A program made the translations under genes and the position numbers. From positions 310,001 to 374,000 of the forward strand of contig NZ_JAMTCJ010000003.1 of assembly GCF_024171815.1 (NCBI RefSeq): a stretch of 64,000 nt of DNA. Reading direction: 5' to 3'. Positions 13,981 to 23,774 of this stretch are shown here, one piece after another. The first letter of the stretch is position 1. Every line of letters begins with the position of its first letter. The DNA comes from Williamsia maris (GTDB taxonomy: Bacteria; Actinomycetota; Actinomycetes; Mycobacteriales; Mycobacteriaceae). The notes under the pieces were generated by a model. The model ran no database searches. It was given only the letters and a program-made list of their open reading frames with translations, and was not told the origin of the DNA.

Positions 13981-14137
13981 CCTGGGCCGCCGGGAGCCGA
14001 TATCGCCGGGGAATGATCGTCGCCACCACGCGGTTGGTCAGGGGTACGGCACCGGACGCGGGAACATCTGACCGTGATTGTGCTCACGATGATTCAAAGT
14101 TATCGCAAGTAGACGCAGTGAGGGAGGCCGTGGCAAT
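13981..14137. promoter_or_regulatory. hemW / sir divergent upstream region
   Basis: No gene is visible between the hemW start and the sir leader peptide. Positions 14076-14100 hold a 25-nt element that reappears at 24317-24341 with 19 identical positions (shared core TCACGATGAT, then AAGT). AGGGAGG at 14121-14127 is the ribosome site of the leader peptide. I could not place a convincing -35/-10 pair for the sir transcript. Confidence 0.4.
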
Positions 14138-14227
14138 ATGGGCGACGTGATTTTCCCAGGGGTGTGGCTTGCCGAGCGGCGCCACATAGACCTCAAGCGC
14201 GTCTGCAGCGCTTTCTGTCTCTTCTGA
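14138..14227 (+). CDS. 29-aa putative cysteine-responsive leader peptide upstream of sir
   Basis: ATG at 14138 has AGGGAGG 10 nt upstream, and the frame ends at TGA 14225-14227. The C-terminal part reads RRHIDLKRVCSAFCLF; the RRHIDLKR..C pattern recurs in actinobacterial leader peptides in front of sulfur-assimilation genes. Two Cys codons (TGC 14204, TGT 14216) fall in the last seven codons. The final codons form the 5' arm of a terminator-like hairpin, as expected for ribosome-mediated attenuation by cysteine supply. Peptide function as a free product is unlikely. The similarity is from memory of the family, not a search. Confidence 0.75.
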   Translation: MGDVIFPGVWLAERRHIDLKRVCSAFCLF

Positions 14228-14257
14228 CCGCGCTCCGCAGCAGAAGAGTCTCTTTTT
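14219..14257 (+). terminator. attenuator-type intrinsic terminator in the sir leader
   Basis: CTCTTCTG (14219-14226) is perfectly complementary to CAGAAGAG (14241-14248), with a 14-nt loop containing a possible GCG/CGC pair, followed by TCTCTTTTT. The 5' arm covers the last two sense codons and the start of the stop codon of the leader ORF. A ribosome held at the Cys codons would therefore block the hairpin and let RNA polymerase reach sir at 14388. Confidence 0.7.
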
Positions 14258-14387
14258 CCACCTCCTCCGGCGCTGCCCGCGCGGTCGTCTCATGCCCTCA
14301 TCTCGATCGCATCGCGAGCCGCCAGCCCCGGCTCGCACGACCGGAACGCACCAAGCGAACCGGCACCAGTCCGTAGGAGCACCACGC

Positions 14388-16124
14388 ATGACCTCGACGC
14401 CCGACACGGAGGCACTCGACACGGGGGCACCCGACGCGGAGGCGGCGCCCCGTCCCGCCCGCCGCCCGCGGCCCGCCAAGCGCCGCGCTGAAGGACAGTG
14501 GAAGCTCGGGTATCGCGAGCCGCTGAACCCCAACGAGCAGGCGAAGAAGGACGACAACCCGCTCAACGTCCGCGCCCGCATCGAGAACATCTACTCCAAG
14601 CGCGGATTCGACTCGATCGACAAGCAGGATCTGCGCGGCCGGATGCGCTGGTGGGGGCTCTACACCCAGCGTGCGCAGGGCTACGACGGCACGTGGACCG
14701 GAGACGAGAACCTCGACCTGCTCGAGGACAACCACTTCATGATGCGGGTCCGTTGCGACAAGGGCGCGCTCACCGCGGAGCAGCTCCGCACGATCGGTGA
14801 GATCTCCACCGAGTTCGCCCGCGACACCGCCGACCTCTCCGACCGCGAGAACGTCCAGTACCACTGGATCCGCATCGAGGACGTCCCCACGATCTGGGAA
14901 CGCCTCGAGGGCGTCGGACTCAAGACCACCGAGGCCTGCGGCGACTGCCCGCGCGTCGTGCTCGGGTCGCCGCTGGCTGGCGAGGCGATCGACGAGGTCC
15001 TCGACCCGACACCGGCGATCGACGAGATCGTCCGTCGCTACGTCGGCGACCCGTCGCTGTCGAACCTGCCCCGCAAGTTCAAGACGGCCATCTCCGGACT
15101 CCAGGACGTCGCCCACGAGGTCAACGACATCGCCTTCATCGGCGTCGAGCACCCCGAGCACGGTCCGGGACTCGACCTCTGGGTCGGCGGCGGCCTGTCG
15201 ACGAACCCGATGCTGGCGCAGCGCGTGGGCGCGTGGATCCCGCTCGACGAGGTCCCCGATGTCTGGGAGGCCGTCTGCACCCTGTTCCGCGACTACGGCT
15301 ACCGACGTCTACGCGCCAAGGCGCGGTTGAAGTTCCTGCTCAAGGACTGGGGCATGGAGAAGTTCCGCCAGGTCCTCGAGGACGAGTACCTCGGCCGGAA
15401 GTTCATCGACGGGCCCGCACCCACCCCGCTGACCGAACCGCGTGACCACGTGGGCGTGCAGCGGTTGAAGAACGGTCTGAACTCGGTCGGCTTCGCCGCC
15501 ATCGCCGGCCGCGTGTCCGGAACCGCGCTGACCGCGGTCGCCGCGGCGGCGCAGCGTGCCGGGTCCGACCGCATCCGGTTCACCCCGTACCAGAAGCTGG
15601 TCATCCTCGACGTCGCCGACGACAAGATCGACACCCTGATCGACGAGTTGGCGGCGCACGGTCTCGACGGTCGCCCGTCGCGGTGGCGTCGCAACCTGAT
15701 CGCCTGCTCGGGCATCGAGTTCTGCAAGCTCTCGTTCACCGAGACCCGCAAGCGCTCACAGCGACTGGTGCCCGAACTCGAAGAGCGGCTCGCCGACATC
15801 AACTCCCAGCTCGACGTTCCGATCACCATCAACATCAACGGCTGCCCGAACTCGTGCGCCCGCGCACAGATCGCCGACATCGGCTTCAAGGGACAGCTGA
15901 TCGAGGACGCCGACGGCAACCACGTCGAGGGTTTCCAGGTGCATCTGGGCGGCACGCTGGGTCAGGACGCCGCGTTCGGTCGCAAACTCCGTCAGCACAA
16001 GGTCGGAACCGAGGAACTCGGCGACTACATCGACCGCGTCGTCCGCAACTTCGTCAAGCACCGCGACAGCGGTGAACGCTTCGCGCAGTGGACACTTCGC
16101 GCGCAGGAGGAGGATCTACGGTGA
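14388..16124 (+). CDS. sir: ferredoxin-dependent assimilatory sulfite reductase
   Basis: Reduces sulfite to sulfide with six electrons, using siroheme coupled to a [4Fe-4S] cluster. 578 residues in the usual two-repeat layout. The cluster/siroheme cysteines are CSGIEFC (C-x5-C) near residue 445 and NGCPNSCAR (C-x3-C) near residue 490. Mycobacterial SirA/NirA is the closest match in layout. I chose the ATG at 14388 because AGGAG lies about 8 nt upstream; the open frame begins earlier at 14292 without such a site. First gene of the sir-cysH-cysD-cysN-chelatase operon; its stop overlaps cysH. Confidence 0.96.
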   Translation: MTSTPDTEALDTGAPDAEAAPRPARRPRPAKRRAEGQWKLGYREPLNPNEQAKKDDNPLNVRARIENIYSKRGFDSIDKQDLRGRMRWWGLYTQRAQGYDGTWTGDENLDLLEDNHFMMRVRCDKGALTAEQLRTIGEISTEFARDTADLSDRENVQYHWIRIEDVPTIWERLEGVGLKTTEACGDCPRVVLGSPLAGEAIDEVLDPTPAIDEIVRRYVGDPSLSNLPRKFKTAISGLQDVAHEVNDIAFIGVEHPEHGPGLDLWVGGGLSTNPMLAQRVGAWIPLDEVPDVWEAVCTLFRDYGYRRLRAKARLKFLLKDWGMEKFRQVLEDEYLGRKFIDGPAPTPLTEPRDHVGVQRLKNGLNSVGFAAIAGRVSGTALTAVAAAAQRAGSDRIRFTPYQKLVILDVADDKIDTLIDELAAHGLDGRPSRWRRNLIACSGIEFCKLSFTETRKRSQRLVPELEERLADINSQLDVPITININGCPNSCARAQIADIGFKGQLIEDADGNHVEGFQVHLGGTLGQDAAFGRKLRQHKVGTEELGDYIDRVVRNFVKHRDSGERFAQWTLRAQEEDLR

Positions 16125-16852
16125 GTACGGCAGTGCGCATGGAGGCGCATCTACGGGACCTGGTCGATGCGGGCAACCGCGATCTGGGTCCGGACGCGAC
16201 ACCGCAGCAGTTGCTCAGGTGGACCGCGGAGAACTTCGGCACCGACTTCGTCGTCGCGTCGAACATGCAGGACGCGGCCCTCGTCGACCTCGCCGTCGAC
16301 GCGATCGACCCGGCGTCGATCGACAACGAGAAGCTCAAGGTGCTCTTCCTCGACACCGGCTACCACTTCGCCGAGACCCTCGGGACCCGCGACGCGGTCG
16401 AGCAGGTCTACGGCGTCGAGATCGTCAACGTCACGCCGGAGCAGACGGTCGGCGAGCAGGATCAGCTGTTGGGCCGCAACCTGTTCGCGTCGAACCCCGC
16501 CGAGTGCTGCCGGCTGCGCAAGGTGGTCCCGCTACAGCGTGAACTGGGTCGCTTCTCCGCATGGGTCACCGGCATCCGTCGTGTCGAGTCCCCCACCCGC
16601 GCCGACGCGCCGTTGATCTCGTTCGACGAGGGCTTCGGCCTGGTGAAGATCAATCCGATCGCAGCGTGGACCGACGAGCAGATGCAGGACTACATCGACA
16701 GCCGCGGCGTCCTGGTCAATCCCCTTGTCGATGAGGGATATCCGTCCATCGGGTGCGAGCCCTGCACCGTCAAGCCGGCACCGGGTGCCGATCCGCGCAG
16801 CGGCCGTTGGGCCGGGCGCTCCAAGACAGAATGCGGGTTGCACGCCTCATGA
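16121..16852 (+). CDS. cysH: adenylyl-sulfate (APS) reductase
   Basis: Reduces APS to sulfite and AMP using thioredoxin. 243 residues. The two cysteine pairs that hold the [4Fe-4S] cluster of APS reductases are present: CCRLRK near residue 130 and CEPC near residue 210. The catalytic ECGLH lies at the C-terminus. These pairs separate it from cluster-free PAPS reductases, so the pathway here needs no CysC kinase for reduction. The GTG start overlaps the sir stop (GTGA) and is preceded by GGAGGAGG inside sir. Confidence 0.95.
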   Translation: MSTAVRMEAHLRDLVDAGNRDLGPDATPQQLLRWTAENFGTDFVVASNMQDAALVDLAVDAIDPASIDNEKLKVLFLDTGYHFAETLGTRDAVEQVYGVEIVNVTPEQTVGEQDQLLGRNLFASNPAECCRLRKVVPLQRELGRFSAWVTGIRRVESPTRADAPLISFDEGFGLVKINPIAAWTDEQMQDYIDSRGVLVNPLVDEGYPSIGCEPCTVKPAPGADPRSGRWAGRSKTECGLHAS

Positions 16853-17802
16853 CCATCGAACAGTCGAACGTCGTCGGGACCACACCACCCGCGGGGGTGA
16901 CCGACGAGTCGGAGTACAGCACCCTCGACGCCCTGGAGTCCGAGGCCATCCACATCTTCCGCGAGGTGGCAGGCGAGTTCGAGCGCCCGGTCATCCTGTT
17001 CTCCGGCGGCAAGGACTCCACGGTCCTGCTGCACGTGGCGATCAAGGCGTTCTGGCCGGCGCCGATCCCGTTCTCGCTCCTGCACGTCGACACCGGACAC
17101 AACCTGCCCGAGGTGTTGGCGTTCCGCGACGAGGTGGTCGCCCGGCACAACCTGCGCCTGCACGTCGCGAGCGTCGAGGACTACCTCGCCGACGGTCGTC
17201 TGACCGAGCGACCCGACGGTGTCCGCAACCCCCTGCAGACCGTTCCGCTGCTCGACGCGATCAACGAACATCGCTTCGATGCGGTGTTCGGCGGTGGACG
17301 TCGCGACGAGGAGCGCTCGCGCGCCAAGGAGCGGATCTTCTCGCTGCGCAACGCCTTCGGCCAGTGGGATCCCAAGCGCCAGCGTCCGGAACTGTGGAAT
17401 CTGTACAACGGCAAGCACGCCCCCGGTGAGCACGTCCGCGTCTTCCCGCTCTCGAACTGGACCGAGCTCGACGTGTGGCGCTACATCGCCCGCGAACAGG
17501 TGTTGCTCCCCGCCATCTACTACGCGCACCAGCGGGACGTGTACGAGCGCGACGGCATGTGGATGACCCCCGGACCGTGGGGCGGACCCCGTGATGGTGA
17601 GGAGATCCAGCGACTCTCGGTGCGATACCGCACCGTCGGTGACGGTTCCACCACCGGCGCGGTCCTGTCCGACGCCGCCGACAACGACGCGGTCCTCGCC
17701 GAGGTCGCCGCATCGCGTCTCACCGAGCGTGGCGCCACCCGCGGTGACGACCGGGTGTCGGAGGCGGCCATGGAGGACCGCAAGCGCGAGGGCTACTTCT
17801 GA
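16849..17802 (+). CDS. cysD: sulfate adenylyltransferase subunit 2
   Basis: Catalytic subunit of ATP sulfurylase, forming APS from ATP and sulfate. 317 residues with the PP-loop SGGKDST near residue 47, the conserved VFGGGRRDEERSRAKERIFS, and WTELDVWRYI. The C-terminus ends KREGYF as usual in CysD. The ATG overlaps the cysH stop (ATGA, 16849-16852). It works as a complex with the CysN GTPase encoded next. Confidence 0.97.
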   Translation: MTIEQSNVVGTTPPAGVTDESEYSTLDALESEAIHIFREVAGEFERPVILFSGGKDSTVLLHVAIKAFWPAPIPFSLLHVDTGHNLPEVLAFRDEVVARHNLRLHVASVEDYLADGRLTERPDGVRNPLQTVPLLDAINEHRFDAVFGGGRRDEERSRAKERIFSLRNAFGQWDPKRQRPELWNLYNGKHAPGEHVRVFPLSNWTELDVWRYIAREQVLLPAIYYAHQRDVYERDGMWMTPGPWGGPRDGEEIQRLSVRYRTVGDGSTTGAVLSDAADNDAVLAEVAASRLTERGATRGDDRVSEAAMEDRKREGYF

Positions 17803-17858
17803 TGAGCGCCCGCACCCCGATGAACGCCACTGGTGAGATGAACGGACGCAACCGATGA
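17802..17858 (+). CDS. possible 18-codon coupling ORF between cysD and cysN
   Basis: The cysD stop (TGATG at 17800-17804) provides an ATG, opening a frame of 18 sense codons (MSARTPMNATGEMNGRNR) whose TGA overlaps the cysN ATG as ATGA (17855-17858). cysN has no strong ribosome site of its own. This suggests a translational bridge rather than a functional peptide; its translation is inferred only from the two overlaps. Confidence 0.35.
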   Translation: MSARTPMNATGEMNGRNR

Positions 17859-19150
17859 CCGCAGGACCCGACCTTCTCCGCATCGCCACCGCGGGCAGCG
17901 TCGACGACGGCAAGTCGACCCTGGTCGGTCGGCTGCTGTTCGACACGAAATCCGTTCTCGCCGACCAGATCGACGCGGTCACCCGCGCCTCGGTCGACAA
18001 GGGCCTCGACACCCCCGACCTGTCGCTGCTCGTCGACGGGCTGCGCGCCGAGCGCGAGCAGGGCATCACCATCGACGTGGCCTACCGGTACTTCGCGACG
18101 CCGCGACGGTCGTTCGTCCTCGCCGACACGCCCGGCCACGTCCAGTACACCCGCAACACGGTCTCCGGCGCGTCGACGGCGTCGCTGGTCATCCTGCTCG
18201 TCGACGCCCGTACCGGTGTGGTCGCCCAGACCCGCAGGCACGCCGCGGTGATGGCCCTGCTGGGTGTGCCGCAGCTGGTGTTGGCGGTCAACAAGATCGA
18301 CCTCGTCGACGACGCGGAGTCGGTGTTCGCCGACATCAGCGCCACGTTTGCCGACCTGACCCGCACGCTGGGCTGGTCCGACGAGCAGGTGCAGGCCATC
18401 CCGGTGTCGGCCCTGCGTGGCGACAACGTCGCGACGCGCTCGGAACTCACCCCGTTCTACGACGGCCCCACCCTCATCGAGCACCTGGAGACGGTGCCCA
18501 ACGTCGCCGATCGCGCCCCCGTCGGGTTCCGCTTCCCGGTGCAGTACGTGATCCGGCCGCGCACCGCCGAGTACCCGGACTACCGCGGCTACGCGGGCCA
18601 GGTCGCCGCCGGTCGCGTCGAGGTCGGCGACGACGTCGTGGTCCTCCCCTCCGGGATCCGCACGACGGTCGCGGGCATCGACACCGCCGACGGCTCGCTC
18701 GAGTCGGCGCACACCGGTCGCAGCGTCACCGTGCTGCTCGCCGACGACATCGACATCTCGCGTGGCGACGTCATCGCTGCGGCCCACGATGCACCGGAAC
18801 CGATCTCGAACTTCACCGCCACCGTGTGCTGGTTGGGCGACAAGCCGCTGCTCCCCGGCGCCCGACTCCTCCTCAAGCACGGCGCGTTCACCACGCCCGC
18901 AATCGTCGGAGGCGTGGACACGCTGTTCGACGAGCAGGAACTGTCCCTGCGGGACGCCCCGGATCGTCTGGAGCTCAACCAGATCGGCCGGATCTCGGTG
19001 CAGACCGCGCAGCCCGTCAGCGCTGACGACTATCTGGTGAGCCGCGAGTCGGGCAGCTTCCTGCTGATCGACCCGCAGGGCGGCAACACCCTGGGCGCCG
19101 GCCTCGTCGGTGACGCGCTCGCCCCGCTGCACCTGTCCGAACTGGTATGA
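17855..19150 (+). CDS. cysN: sulfate adenylyltransferase subunit 1 (GTPase)
   Basis: GTPase that drives ATP sulfurylase with CysD. 431 residues: G1 AGSVDDGKSTLVGR near residue 12, the switch region with REQGITIDVAYR, DTPGH, NKID, then elongation-factor-like beta barrels. It lacks the C-terminal APS kinase (CysC) domain found fused in M. tuberculosis CysNC, in agreement with a pathway that goes directly through APS reductase. The stop overlaps the chelatase start (ATGA, 19147-19150). Confidence 0.96.
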   Translation: MTAGPDLLRIATAGSVDDGKSTLVGRLLFDTKSVLADQIDAVTRASVDKGLDTPDLSLLVDGLRAEREQGITIDVAYRYFATPRRSFVLADTPGHVQYTRNTVSGASTASLVILLVDARTGVVAQTRRHAAVMALLGVPQLVLAVNKIDLVDDAESVFADISATFADLTRTLGWSDEQVQAIPVSALRGDNVATRSELTPFYDGPTLIEHLETVPNVADRAPVGFRFPVQYVIRPRTAEYPDYRGYAGQVAAGRVEVGDDVVVLPSGIRTTVAGIDTADGSLESAHTGRSVTVLLADDIDISRGDVIAAAHDAPEPISNFTATVCWLGDKPLLPGARLLLKHGAFTTPAIVGGVDTLFDEQELSLRDAPDRLELNQIGRISVQTAQPVSADDYLVSRESGSFLLIDPQGGNTLGAGLVGDALAPLHLSELV

Positions 19151-19902
19151 CCCCGACGCTGGTCCTCGCGGCGCACGGAAGTCGTGATCCCCGCTTCGTG
19201 GTCACCGCGGAGCGGGTGCGCGACGCCGTTGCCGTCGCGTTGCCCGGCGTGCGGGTCGAATTGGCCTACCTCGACCTGAACGAGCCGACGGTCGCCGATG
19301 CGTTGGGTGCCGCGACCGGCTCGCACGTCGTGGTGGTCCCGCTGTTGTTCTCCACCGCGTTCCACGCCACGGTCGATCTGCCGGCGATCATCGACGCCTT
19401 CCGTGCCGGGCACCGCCACGTCGCGGTCACCCAGACGGCGACGCTCGGGGGCGACCACCGGCTGATCGGCGCCCTGACGGATCGTCTGGCGGACATCGCG
19501 ATCCGCTCCGACGACGGGGTGATCGTCTGCGCGGTCGGCAGTCGCGATCCGGCCTCCGACAACGAGCTGAACGCCGTGGCCCACCAACTCTCGAAGCGAC
19601 TCGGCGGCACCGCCGCGCGTCCGCTGTTCGCGACACGGCTGGGCGCCGACGGGGTGAACCTGCGAACCGCGATCGAGGCGGTGACGGCGGCGGGAGCGCG
19701 ACGCGTCGTGCTCAGCCCGTACTTCCTGTCCGCGGGAACCCTCACCGATCGCGTGGAGAACGCGCTGGACGCAATGGCGCCCGACTCCGCGGTGGCCGGG
19801 CCGATCGGACCGCACCCCGGACTCGTCGCGATCATCTGCGACCGCTATCGCACCGCCTTGTCTCAGCCGGCGATGGCAGGCACGCGCGTGGCGCGCACGT
19901 AG
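19147..19902 (+). CDS. sirohydrochlorin chelatase (CbiX/SirB family)
   Basis: Inserts Fe2+ (or Co2+) into sirohydrochlorin to give siroheme, the cofactor of the sulfite reductase encoded in the same operon. 251 residues in two tandem CbiX-type halves. The first starts [13 protein letters not shown] with the metal-binding His, and [17 protein letters not shown] carries the second His. The second half begins [13 protein letters not shown] and contains [16 protein letters not shown]. Located like M. tuberculosis che1 after cysH. The 3' end overlaps cysA by 40 bp in convergent orientation. Confidence 0.9.
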
Positions 19903-20858
19903 ACCTCGTCACCCTCGGACAGCGACAGCGCCTCGGCGTCACCGCGGGTGATCTGGGCGTGGAACTCGTCGCCGGTGGCCGCGTTCGACAGCTCGACACG
20001 GACCTCGAAGCCGAGATGAACCACGCGGTGCACCCTGGCCTTGAGCACGCCGGTCTCGGCGCTGGCCTGATCGGCGCTCGACAGCGCCAGGTCGGGCGTG
20101 CGTCCGACGCGGATGTCGTGGGGACGGACCAGCGATCCGTTGAGCTTGGCCACCGAGCCGAGGAACGACATCACGAACTCGTTCTGCGGGCGGTCGTACA
20201 GGTCGTCGGGACTGCCGACCTGCTCGATGCGTCCCTTGTTGAGCACGGCGATCCGGTCGGCGACGTCGAGCGCCTCCTGCTGGTCGTGGGTGACCAGCAC
20301 CGTGGTCACGTGGACCTCGTCGTGCAGCCGCCGCAACCACTTCCGCAGGTCCTCGCGCACCTTGGCGTCGAGAGCACCGAACGGCTCGTCGAGCAGCAAC
20401 ACCTTCGGGTCGACGGCGAGAGCACGGGCCAACGCCATGCGCTGTCGCTGGCCACCGGACAGCTGCGCCGGGTAACGCGTCTGGAATCCGGTCAGTCCGA
20501 CGACGTCGAGCAGCTCGTCGACCTTCTTCGCGACCTCGGCCTTGGGGCGCTTGCGGATCTTCAGGCCGAACGCGACGTTCTCGCGCACGGTCATGTGCTT
20601 GAACGCGGCGTAGTGCTGGAACACGAACCCGATGTCGCGATTCTGCGGCGACACCCTGGTGACGTCGTCACCGTTGATGTAGACGGTGCCGGAGTCGAGC
20701 TGGTCGAGCCCGGCGATGGAACGCAGCAGCGTGGACTTGCCCGAACCCGACGGACCGAGCAGCGCCGTCAACGATCCGGACGGGATCTCCAGCGACACGT
20801 CGTCGAGGGCCGCGAAGTCGCCGTAGCGCTTGTTGGCACCGGAAACAGAAATCGTCAT
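19863..20858 (-). CDS. cysA: sulfate/thiosulfate ABC transporter ATPase
   Basis: Energises sulfate import. 331 residues: Walker [10 protein letters not shown] near residue 36, Q-loop in [12 protein letters not shown], signature [15 protein letters not shown] near residue 133, Walker [14 protein letters not shown]-loop VTHDQQEA and a C-terminal TOBE-type domain. Last gene of the sbp-cysT-cysW-cysA operon; the ATG overlaps the cysW stop (20855-20858). Confidence 0.96.
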
Positions 20859-21763
20859 CGTGCAAACTCCTTGTCACCGGTTGTGGTGTCGATCGGAAGG
20901 GTGTCGTCGGTCGGGTCGGGGGTGTCGTCGCTCGTGCGGCGTGCGCTGCGGGTGACCCGACCCACCGCACCCCGTCGTTCGATGAGGGTCATGGCGAGCA
21001 GGACGAGCAGTGCGATGAACATCAGCAGGGTCGCCGCCGCGTAGGCACCGAACTCGTTGTAGTCGTCGGTGTAGCGCGACGACACCAACAGCGTCAGGGT
21101 CTGCGAGATGCCGGGGAACCCGGACGAGACGATGATGACCGCGCCGTATTCGCCGAGGCTGCGCGCCACCGTGAGCACCACGCCGTAGGTCAGGCCCCAG
21201 CGGATCGCCGGGAGCGTGATGCGCCGGAACGTCTGCCAACCGCCCGCGCCCAGGGTGGCCGCGGCCTCCTCCTGTTCGGTCCCGATCTCCCGGAGCACCG
21301 GTTCGACCTCACGGACGACGAACGGCAGGGTCACGAAGATGGTCGCGAGGACCATGCCCGGCAGCCCGAAGATCACCCGGAAGCCCAGGCTCTCGATGCC
21401 GCCGAACCAGCCGCCGTATCCCCACAGCAGGATCAGCGACACACCGACCACGACCGGCGAGACCGCGAACGGCAGGTCGATGATGGCCTGCACGATGCCG
21501 CGGCCGCGGAATCGGCCGCGCACCAGCGCGATGGCCGTCGCGACACCGAAGATGACGTTGAGCGGCACGACGATGACGACGATGAGCAGGCTCAGTTGCA
21601 GCGCCGAGATCGCCGCCGGGGTCGTGATCCAGTCCCAGAACTGGCCGAGACCGTGTTCGAAGGAGCGCCAGAAGATCAACGCGACCGGCACGACGAGCAG
21701 CACGAACAGGTAGAGCAACGCGACGATGCGCAGACCGTATTTCGAGCCCGGTGACAGTTTCAC
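20855..21763 (-). CDS. cysW: sulfate ABC transporter permease CysW
   Basis: Inner-membrane permease of 302 residues with about six membrane segments and the coupling loop [26 protein letters not shown] that contacts CysA (EAA motif). A Ser/Asp-rich tail follows the last helix. The GTG start overlaps the cysT stop (21760-21763). CysT and CysW form the heterodimeric channel. Confidence 0.94.
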
Positions 21764-22617
21764 GTGTCCGCTCCCTCACGCTTGGCCGACCGTCGTCCGA
21801 CGATGCGCAGCACCAGCAGGACGACGAAGGCGATGAGCAGCAGCACGACCGACACCGCGGAGGCGTCGATGGGCTTGTCGACCTCGAGCTGCTGCTGGAT
21901 GTACTGCGACGCGACCTGGGTCTCGCCGGGGATGTTGCCGCCGATGAGCACGACCGAGCCGAACTCGCCGATGGCGCGGGTGAAGGCCAACCCGGCGCCG
22001 GTGAGGATCGCCGGGGCCAGCGACGGCACGATGATCCGCCACCAGATGGTGAGGTTGGACGCACCGAGCGATGCCGCGGCCTCCTCGACCTCACGGTCGA
22101 CCTCGATCAGGACGGGCTGCACCTGGCGCACCACGAACGGCAGCGTCACGAAGGCCAGCGCGATCACCAGTGCCGGTTTGGTCGCGTTGAGCTCGATGTC
22201 GATGGGGCTGTTGGGCCCGTAGAGCGAGAGCAGCACCAGGCTCGCGACGATCGTCGGCAGCGCGAACGGGAGGTCGATGAGCGCGTTGACGATCCGCTTG
22301 CCCGGGAACTCGTCCCTGACGAGGACCCACGCCACGAGCGTGCCCATGACGACGTTCACCAGTGCGACGACCACCGACACCAACACCGTGGTCTGGATGG
22401 CCCCGACCGCGTTGTCGGCGGTGACGGCATCGGCGAACCCGCTCCAGCCGTCCTCGAACGACTTCGCCGTGATGGCGGCCAACGGCAGCAGCACGATGAC
22501 CGTGAGCCAGAGTCCGGCCACCCCGATGCCCAGCGGCCCACCGCCGACGATCCGGCGGCCTCCCGCGAGCCTCGGTGGTGGTGCGGCGGATACCGGTTCG
22601 ACCTGCACCGACGTCAT
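21760..22617 (-). CDS. cysT: sulfate ABC transporter permease CysT
   Basis: 285 residues, about six membrane segments, with the EAA loop EEAAASLGASNLTIWWRIIVPS. I set the start at the ATG 22615-22617, which overlaps the sbp stop as ATGA; the open frame extends further upstream but inside sbp. The N-terminal 25 residues are cytoplasmic and Pro/Gly-rich. Pairs with CysW. Confidence 0.94.
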   Translation of the reverse strand: MTSVQVEPVSAAPPPRLAGGRRIVGGGPLGIGVAGLWLTVIVLLPLAAITAKSFEDGWSGFADAVTADNAVGAIQTTVLVSVVVALVNVVMGTLVAWVLVRDEFPGKRIVNALIDLPFALPTIVASLVLLSLYGPNSPIDIELNATKPALVIALAFVTLPFVVRQVQPVLIEVDREVEEAAASLGASNLTIWWRIIVPSLAPAILTGAGLAFTRAIGEFGSVVLIGGNIPGETQVASQYIQQQLEVDKPIDASAVSVVLLLIAFVVLLVLRIVGRRSAKREGADT

Positions 22618-23774
22618 GACTTGCCTCCTGCGTCGTAGATCCTGCTGATCGCGCCCTTTGTCCCGAAGAGCGCGGAGTCGACCGCTTTCCAGCCGGTCAG
22701 GTCCTTGCCCTTGTTCTTGGCCGCGGTTCCCTTCCCCAGCACCTTGCCGAGGTCGGAGATCGTCCACAGCTTGTCGATGGTCCCGGGAAACAAGTTCTTC
22801 GTGGCCGCGATGACGTCGGGTTTGACCGGGCGGAAGCCCTGCTCGGCCCAGATCCGCTGTCCCTCATCGGTGAAGAGGTAGTCGACGAACGCGTTCGCGG
22901 CGGCCTTGTCGTCGCTGGTGTTGACCACGGCCACCGGGTTCTCGATCTTGAACGTCGTCGGCGGGATCACGTAGTCGACCCGCTGCGACTGCGGTGCGGT
23001 GTTGTTCTTGCGCGACAGCATGATCGCTTCGTTCTCGTAGCTGATCAGCACGTCGCCCTGGCCCTGCTCGAAGGTCGTGGTCGCCTCGCGACCCGACTTC
23101 GGGTTGACCCGGATGTGATCGCGCAGCAACGAGGTGACGTAGGAGAGGCCCGCTTTCGGGTTCGCACCGCCGTTGCTCTCGGCCGCATAGGGGGCCAGCA
23201 GGTTCCACTTCGCCGAGCCCGAGCTGCCGGGGTTGGGGGTGATCACCTCGACGCCCGGCTTGAGCAGATCGTCCCAGTTGTGGATGTTCTTCGGGTTGCC
23301 CTGCCGGACCACCAGTGCCACAACCGATCCGAACGGGGTGCTGTTGTACGGGGCGTGCTGGGACTTCCAGTCCTTGTCGATGACCCCCGCGGTGACGAGG
23401 CGGGTGATGTCGGGCTCGACGGAGAAGTTGACGACATCGGCGGGCACGCGGCGGGCGACCTTGCGGGACTGGTCACCGGAGGCGCCGTAGGACTGCGAGA
23501 AGCCGATGTCCTTGCCCGCTTCGGTCTCCCGGAACGCCGGGATGATCTTGTCGAAGCCGGGCTTGGGGGTGGCGTAGGCGATGAGGTTCACGTGCCGCGA
23601 ACCGCTGGAGATGTTCTCCCCGCCCGGGGTGTCGGTGGACCCGCCCGCGCACGCCGCGACGGTGGCCGCCACGACGAACATCGACGCCACCGCTCTCGAC
23701 AGGCGGGCGGCCGACGACGGGAGTCGTCGGTCGGCCGGGGCCCGGCGTGATGCCGGGACTCGATGGACGAACAT
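22614..23774 (-). CDS. sbp: sulfate-binding lipoprotein of the ABC transporter
   Basis: Captures sulfate outside the membrane and delivers it to CysT/CysW. 386 residues with an Arg-rich N-terminus, a hydrophobic stretch near residues 29-40 and a lipobox ending VAAC at Cys42, so it is probably a lipoprotein. The mature part has the Sbp/CysP signatures YGASGDQSRKV and VITPNPGSSGSAKWNLL. ATG at 23774 is preceded by AAGGGG. Orthologous in position to mycobacterial subI. First structural gene of the importer operon, 88 nt after a Cys-containing leader ORF. Confidence 0.94.
   Translation of the reverse strand: MFVHRVPASRRAPADRRLPSSAARLSRAVASMFVVAATVAACAGGSTDTPGGENISSGSRHVNLIAYATPKPGFDKIIPAFRETEAGKDIGFSQSYGASGDQSRKVARRVPADVVNFSVEPDITRLVTAGVIDKDWKSQHAPYNSTPFGSVVALVVRQGNPKNIHNWDDLLKPGVEVITPNPGSSGSAKWNLLAPYAAESNGGANPKAGLSYVTSLLRDHIRVNPKSGREATTTFEQGQGDVLISYENEAIMLSRKNNTAPQSQRVDYVIPPTTFKIENPVAVVNTSDDKAAANAFVDYLFTDEGQRIWAEQGFRPVKPDVIAATKNLFPGTIDKLWTISDLGKVLGKGTAAKNKGKDLTGWKAVDSALFGTKGAISRIYDAGGKS

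Follow-up and report, generated by a model that had tools for sequence, protein, structure and literature searches.

The sulfite reductase gene sir of Williamsia maris (ATG 14388) is directly preceded by a short open reading frame (stop at 14227) that has cysteine codons at its end and whose last codons run into a hairpin. We asked whether this arrangement could act as a cysteine-responsive attenuator of the sulfate-assimilation operon, as a preliminary description of the locus had proposed, and which of its parts are kept in related genomes. All coordinates refer to the window, i.e. the whole stretch of 64,000 nucleotides that was analysed.

Leader and operon

The features discussed below are the following:

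14110–14115, forward strand: possible −35 element TAGACG, with a putative promoter role read from upstream sequences
14131–14139, forward strand: −10-like element TGGCAATAT, at a constant distance from the leader start
14147–14227, forward strand: leader reading frame, GTG start, 26 codons, encoding VIFPGVWLAERRHIDLKRVCSAFCLF followed by the stop; leaderless-type by comparison, with a profile match
14204–14206, forward strand: first cysteine codon, TGC
14216–14218, forward strand: second cysteine codon, TGT, codon-locked, proposed sensor
14219–14257, forward strand: predicted intrinsic terminator, 8-bp stem 14219–14226/14241–14248, T tract to 14257
14375–14379, forward strand: Shine-Dalgarno sequence AGGAG of sir (same sequence in L014, a related locus)
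14388–16124, forward strand: sir, sulfite reductase (PF01077, PF03460)
16088–16852, forward strand: cysH, PAPS/APS reductase domain protein, start uncertain (PF01507)
16849–17802, forward strand: cysD-like, PAPS_reduct-domain protein, ATG 16849 (PF01507)
17855–19150, forward strand: cysN-like GTPase (PF00009)
19147–19902, forward strand: CbiX-type chelatase (PF01903)

Domains of the operon were assigned with Pfam, the gene names being our inference. They bear out the order sir-cysH-cysD-cysN-chelatase that had been described downstream of the leader. The sir gene is 89% identical, over the best segment, to those of Williamsia herbipolensis and W. deligens. Facing the operon, positions 19863–23774 of the minus strand hold genes that by eye resemble those for the ATPase, two permeases and binding protein of a sulfate ABC transporter.

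The leader had been described as a 29-codon frame with a good ribosome site, running on the forward strand from ATG 14138 to the stop codon TGA 14225–14227 and encoding MGDVIFPGVWLAERRHIDLKRVCSAFCLF. The frame itself was found as described, with this ATG lying in frame 9 nt upstream of GTG 14147 and overlapping the −10 region. The upstream sequences of related loci argue against the ATG start and its ribosome site. We compared 112 distinct sir leader loci, obtained after removal of 10 duplicates; L062, L077 and L109 (no core pattern), L167 (unparsed) and L148 and L149 (no sir start) were left out. A start codon was found 10–11 nt past a TGGCA element in 108 of the 112 loci (GTG in 76, ATG in 32), using a pattern that allowed a spacing of about 8–14 nt and required the leader frame; the other four loci missed the pattern. 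Between the TGGCA element and this start, an in-frame start codon is present in 72 of the 108 loci, only an out-of-frame one in 28 and none in 8. At the W. deligens locus (L011/L049), the ATG equivalent to 14138 does not share the reading frame of the peptide. In the majority of Williamsia and Gordonia loci, the −35 candidate reads AAGTAGAC. Translation of the leader from GTG 14147 is most likely leaderless. If the transcript starts at this GTG, the purine-rich stretch 14120–14127 would lie upstream of the RNA.

Leaderless polycysteine ORFs with cysteine-responsive attenuation were reportedly described by Canestrari in Mol Microbiol in 2020. The uORF of nirA/Msmeg_4527, a mycobacterial relative of the present leader, figures in a PLoS Genet article of 2015 (PMC4633059), and leader peptides without clear terminators had been predicted for mycobacterial cys operons in 2005 (PMC1262725). 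The Williamsia leader matches the profile NF042936 (leader_Ms4527A) with an E value of 2.8e-10 and 39.6 bits, under the cut-off of 45, and the profile NF042934 (cis_reg_atten) with 24.9 bits, under the cut-off of 27. All 8 genomes of the genus gave matches to NF042936, none of them above cut-off, as did 206 of 251 genomes of the family, 65 of them above it; within the class, 110 of 148 genomes have NF042934 matches. Of 80 named relatives, 77 have the core leader in front of sir, and a scan for its motif over the whole window gave a single occurrence, at 14183. By these matches, the Williamsia leader is related, with sub-threshold scores, to the Ms4527A cysteine-leader family found at the mycobacterial sulfite reductase. 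Like Ms4527A leaders, it is a short leaderless-type ORF next to a sulfite reductase gene, with the core RRH[VI]D[LF]KRVCS and cysteine at its end. A leaderless start behind a −10 element, a property of the mycobacterial examples, is made likely in Williamsia by the comparative anatomy of the loci, with its constant spacing between TGGCA and start. The Cys tracts differ: the Williamsia leader has CSAFC, its two cysteines being split by SAF, whereas many mycobacterial loci have CSCCC or CTCCC. There is thus no run of adjacent cysteines ('polycysteine') in Williamsia.

Several other leaders came to light in the same material. The W. maris genome encodes a second cysteine leader, MLTRREFMLTRRRAIDFCRFATCRCR followed by the stop (L002, 1480–1560; G000:C1 near 974738), which by eye precedes a rhodanese/thiosulfate sulfurtransferase-like gene, matches NF042934 with 22.5 bits, under the cut-off, and carries TGT nine codons past its aspartate (D+9). 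Two loci of another genus of the family (L155 and L156) have longer Cys/Met-rich leaders, CSGMCMPCGMC.MHMPSMH, behind which lies a stretch rich in T. One record, entered as Kitasatospora arboriphila (L053), has almost the same sir locus as Williamsia muralis and is probably mislabelled.

Conservation of the peptide and of one cysteine codon

Codons of the core are numbered here from its histidine (H0). Five residues (L−5, R−2, H0, D+2 and R+5) are invariant across 94 unique leader cores. On a tree of 111 sir loci, R−2, H0, D+2 and R+5 show no amino-acid change, with 34, 16, 20 and 21 third-base changes, respectively. RNAalifold found no consensus structure among 88 unique leaders (energy 0). 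Two subgroups, with Trp (25 leaders) or Arg (24 leaders) at codon −6, have hairpins of their own and the other 39 have almost none; local-fold z profiles around the UGU codon are mixed. Given the invariant residues and the lack of a common structure by RNAalifold, what is kept is the peptide and not an RNA fold common to the leaders. Invariance of the flanking residues despite free synonymous change hints at stalling assisted by the nascent chain.

The two cysteine codons behave differently. At the first, 4 of 111 loci carry Asn, Ser or Ala instead, and the 108 loci with Cys there have TGC in 76 cases and TGT in 32. The second, at H+11 (14216 in the window), is TGT in 104 of the 105 sir leaders that have Cys at this position. 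The sole TGC was found in L093, where the next codon is Cys TGT. In six of the remaining 7 leaders of the 112, the last Cys of the core lies two codons earlier and is TGT; the seventh, L145, is frameshifted just before UGU, which puts the conserved Cys out of frame and may represent a natural loss or an assembly error. One third-base change was counted on the tree at H+11, as against 16 at the first Cys codon (111 loci). Four of 112 sir leaders have a single Cys, and UGU and the fixed peptide around it are kept there too. In the sir genes of the leader loci, some of them incomplete, cysteine is encoded by TGC 555 times and by TGT 22 times. TGT is likewise overrepresented at H+9 (39 of 47) and H+10 (21 of 48), so that the lock at H+11 is the strongest case of a bias that extends over the cysteine tract.

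The same codon is kept across the class. In the Williamsia leader, TGT 14216 lies nine codons after the conserved Asp (GAC 14189), and this spacing from Asp to Cys(UGU) is shared with NF042934 leaders, of which we sampled 70 loci minus L234, i.e. 69 loci with 71 leaders, 68 of them distinct. The Cys nine codons past Asp is TGT in 71 of the 71 parsed leaders, from 21 actinobacterial families (family labels counted by hand), the sample consisting of the best-scoring matches. Since the NF042934 profile search runs on protein, no codon was selected by it. Other Cys codons at D+2 and D+7 in 63 NF042934 leaders, including L002, are TGC 58 times and TGT 10 times. Up to 11 NF042934 matches occur per genome; several different downstream genes must therefore be involved.

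UGU would be read through wobble by the one tRNA-Cys. Our reading of the UGU lock is that it may reflect selection for a slowly decoded stall codon. Base pairing by the U could also account for the conservation: in 95 loci, the likely partners of the UGU third base are mostly A, located in the spacer (50) or in the leader (24) at positions that differ between loci, and in most of the Gordonia loci listed it pairs just behind the stop codon. We favour a codon effect over a pairing effect because the UGU lock is spread over the whole class. The lock of a single UGU goes beyond the preliminary description; no description of it was found in the literature searched, which does not establish that it is absent from print.

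The hairpin behind the leader

The 5′ arm of the hairpin, CTCTTCTG (14219–14226), consists of the last two sense codons of the leader and the TG of its stop codon. It is followed by a loop of 14 nt, the 3′ arm CAGAAGAG (14241–14248) and TCTCTTTTT (14249–14257), and the free energy of the hairpin is −13.6 kcal/mol. The 8-bp hairpin and T tract claimed for the locus are therefore present, and they form the strongest such element in the window: on both strands of the 64 kb, this is the sole Watson-Crick stem of at least 8 bp (loop 3–14) with at least 6 T in 8. When the leader-spacer stretch that contains it is shuffled with dinucleotides preserved, a looser match (stem of at least 6, G-T pairs allowed, at least 5 T) arises in 3% of cases. 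A hairpin scan with a loop limit of 8, which passes over the 14-nt loop, lists a different hairpin at 14195–14213. Scanning the window against Rfam gave no family at its gathering score.

This element has a narrow distribution. The 39 nt of hairpin and T tract were found in 3 of 121 sampled genomes of the family (G000, G003 and G005), all of the same genus; the search tolerated up to 3 mismatches and all three matches were exact. The five remaining genomes of the genus are without them. Among the 112 distinct sir leaders, a stem of at least 8 with at least 6 T occurs in three, which are sisters. Over the 35 nt past the leader stop, none of the three sister pairs shows a difference, while the rest of the spacer (110 nt) differs at 8, 4 and 8 sites, which is mild evidence for a sequence constraint on these 35 nt. 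By this distribution, the putative terminator is lineage-specific, belonging to this Williamsia subclade, a point that the preliminary description did not contain. Being confined to three sister genomes, it is not the general mechanism of the family, and since an element this strong is absent from 109 of 112 distinct sir leaders, the leader family works without it.

Intrinsic termination as a general mechanism was also considered at a loose threshold and rejected: 16 of 85 loci matched against 5.85 expected by shuffling, but the matches are clumped in near relatives. Within 120 nt of the UGU codon of NF042934 leaders, a terminator was found in 0 of 70 (stem of at least 8, at least 6 T) or 1 of 70 (stem of at least 6, at least 5 T). 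L150, from another genus, has a separate hairpin with a T-rich tail between leader and sir (stem of at least 7, at least 6 T), perhaps an independent terminator.

Similar combinations are known elsewhere. Upstream of cysS in Rhodobacterales, uORFC-8-2 has Cys codons followed by an intrinsic terminator, and transcription attenuation through shortage of Cys-tRNA has been proposed for it (PMC8632094). By its description, it differs from the Williamsia leader in phylum and gene, in its AUG start, in its tandem Cys codons, mostly UGC, and in its own stem architecture. LeuL2 and TrpL1 of Streptomyces lividans likewise combine an actinobacterial leaderless leader with a hairpin and a U stretch, described as Rho-independent terminators; the signal is leucine or tryptophan instead of cysteine and the peptides are different (PMC8079986).

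We then placed a ribosome on the leader, using a footprint model in which it is assumed to cover 18 nt upstream and 12 nt downstream of the first base in the A site. The probability of the terminator stem, 0.98 by folding in the free leaderless RNA, is 1.00 with the ribosome at TGC 14204 and 0.00 with the ribosome at TGT 14216. In this model UGU 14216, and not the first Cys codon, would therefore be placed to block termination; the proposal that a stalled ribosome covers the hairpin arm, made for both codons, holds for 14216 and fails for 14204. The stem is also abolished (0.00) by a ribosome on the stop codon, so that termination in cysteine-rich cells would need quick release. It is weakened by ribosomes at some earlier codons, to 0.22 at CGC 14198 and 0.48 at GCT 14210, indicating that some competing pairing exists and that the switch is not clean in the footprint model. 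Folding of the Williamsia leader identified no clear antiterminator hairpin.

Possible modes of regulation

Taking as observed the anatomy, the family relation, the leaderless-type start, the selection on peptide and codon, and the strength and distribution of the hairpin, we infer the transcription start, the stalling, the termination and cysteine as the signal. We consider it rather probable that the sulfate-assimilation operon is controlled here by ribosome-mediated attenuation in response to cysteine, in which a stall at UGU 14216 blocks the terminator. RNA polymerase would start at or beside GTG 14147, and the 26-codon leader would be translated without a Shine-Dalgarno site. With ample Cys-tRNA, the ribosome would get past UGU 14216, terminate and leave; the last leader codons could then pair with 14241–14248, and RNA polymerase would stop in the T tract near 14257. 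With scarce Cys-tRNA, the ribosome would wait with UGU 14216 in its A site and its front edge near 14228, covering the 5′ arm; the terminator could not form and sir-cysH-cysD-cysN-CbiX would be transcribed. Similarity to NF042936 and the matches across genus and family give good support to attenuation keyed to cysteine, as had been claimed. The term 'classical' goes too far for a leader with no clear antiterminator. Counting against the attenuator model are the presence of only two Cys codons, four codons apart, and a weak family-wide trend towards translational output.

Translational output, a mode reported for mycobacterial Cys leaders, would mean that the spacer folds over the sir Shine-Dalgarno sequence when no ribosome is stalled, the hairpin 14219–14257 being incidental. 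The M. smegmatis work is cited as translation attenuation in PMC13236596, in contrast to the terminator that overlaps the last leader codons in Williamsia, and at some mycobacterial loci the Shine-Dalgarno sequence lies within a local hairpin, e.g. GGCTCCTCCGAAGGAGCC (L107). The trend itself comes from 102 loci: placing a ribosome on their last Cys codon changes the cost of opening the Shine-Dalgarno sequence by a mean of −0.26 kcal/mol, lowering it by more than 1 in 17 loci and raising it by more than 1 in 5, while the controls, at five codons further upstream, gave lower costs in 6–11 loci and higher costs in 9–19. At the Williamsia locus, however, there is hardly any effect (0.0 and −0.3), and in its two sisters L013 and L015 the sign is reversed, with +2.6 and +1.0, and +2.5 and +1.3, respectively. 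Pairing of the leader tail with the Shine-Dalgarno sequence fares no better. A role of the tail as anti-Shine-Dalgarno sequence, noticed by eye in Gordonia and W. deligens, was rejected: over 95 loci with 84 distinct pairs, complementarity is no higher than after shuffling of the tails (mean z +0.26), although single loci pair well (L136, −14.1 kcal/mol). We regard translational output as unlikely at the Williamsia locus.

Rho-dependent attenuation of the tnaC type, in which departure of the ribosome would expose C-rich RNA behind the leader to Rho, is less likely still. C exceeds G in the spacer of 111 of 112 loci (means of 0.39 for C and 0.27 for G), a figure for sir-leader spacers alone, and Rho was suggested for mycobacterial cys leaders without terminators in PMC1262725, which calls its prediction weak; in Williamsia, a good intrinsic terminator would act before Rho. 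It is hardly credible that the leader is a small protein with a function in trans that merely shares the operon promoter. Conservation of the peptide does extend beyond Cys, but the peptide varies at both ends, one codon is locked at its third base and the place before sir is conserved, all of which fit a role in cis.

The attenuator with a stall at UGU 14216 is thus the reading that we prefer for this locus, and it is a known kind of switch, that of mycobacteria, here joined to a terminator. More tentatively, the NF042934 and NF042936 leaders may form one family of codon-locked cysteine sensors assisted by the nascent chain. Lying in the exit tunnel, the peptide L..R.[HA][VI]D[LF].R would prime the ribosome, the UGU nine codons past Asp would be the stall codon, and the output module would be exchangeable, being in the Williamsia subclade an intrinsic terminator made out of the final codons of the leader itself.

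Mycobacterial cysteine attenuation takes its name from runs of Cys codons. What is kept across the class is one UGU and a fixed peptide around it, rather than a Cys run. If the codon-lock reading is correct, the stall should be weakened by the synonymous UGC and should depend on the nascent peptide. The Williamsia locus would also show a way of building a terminator onto such a sensor.
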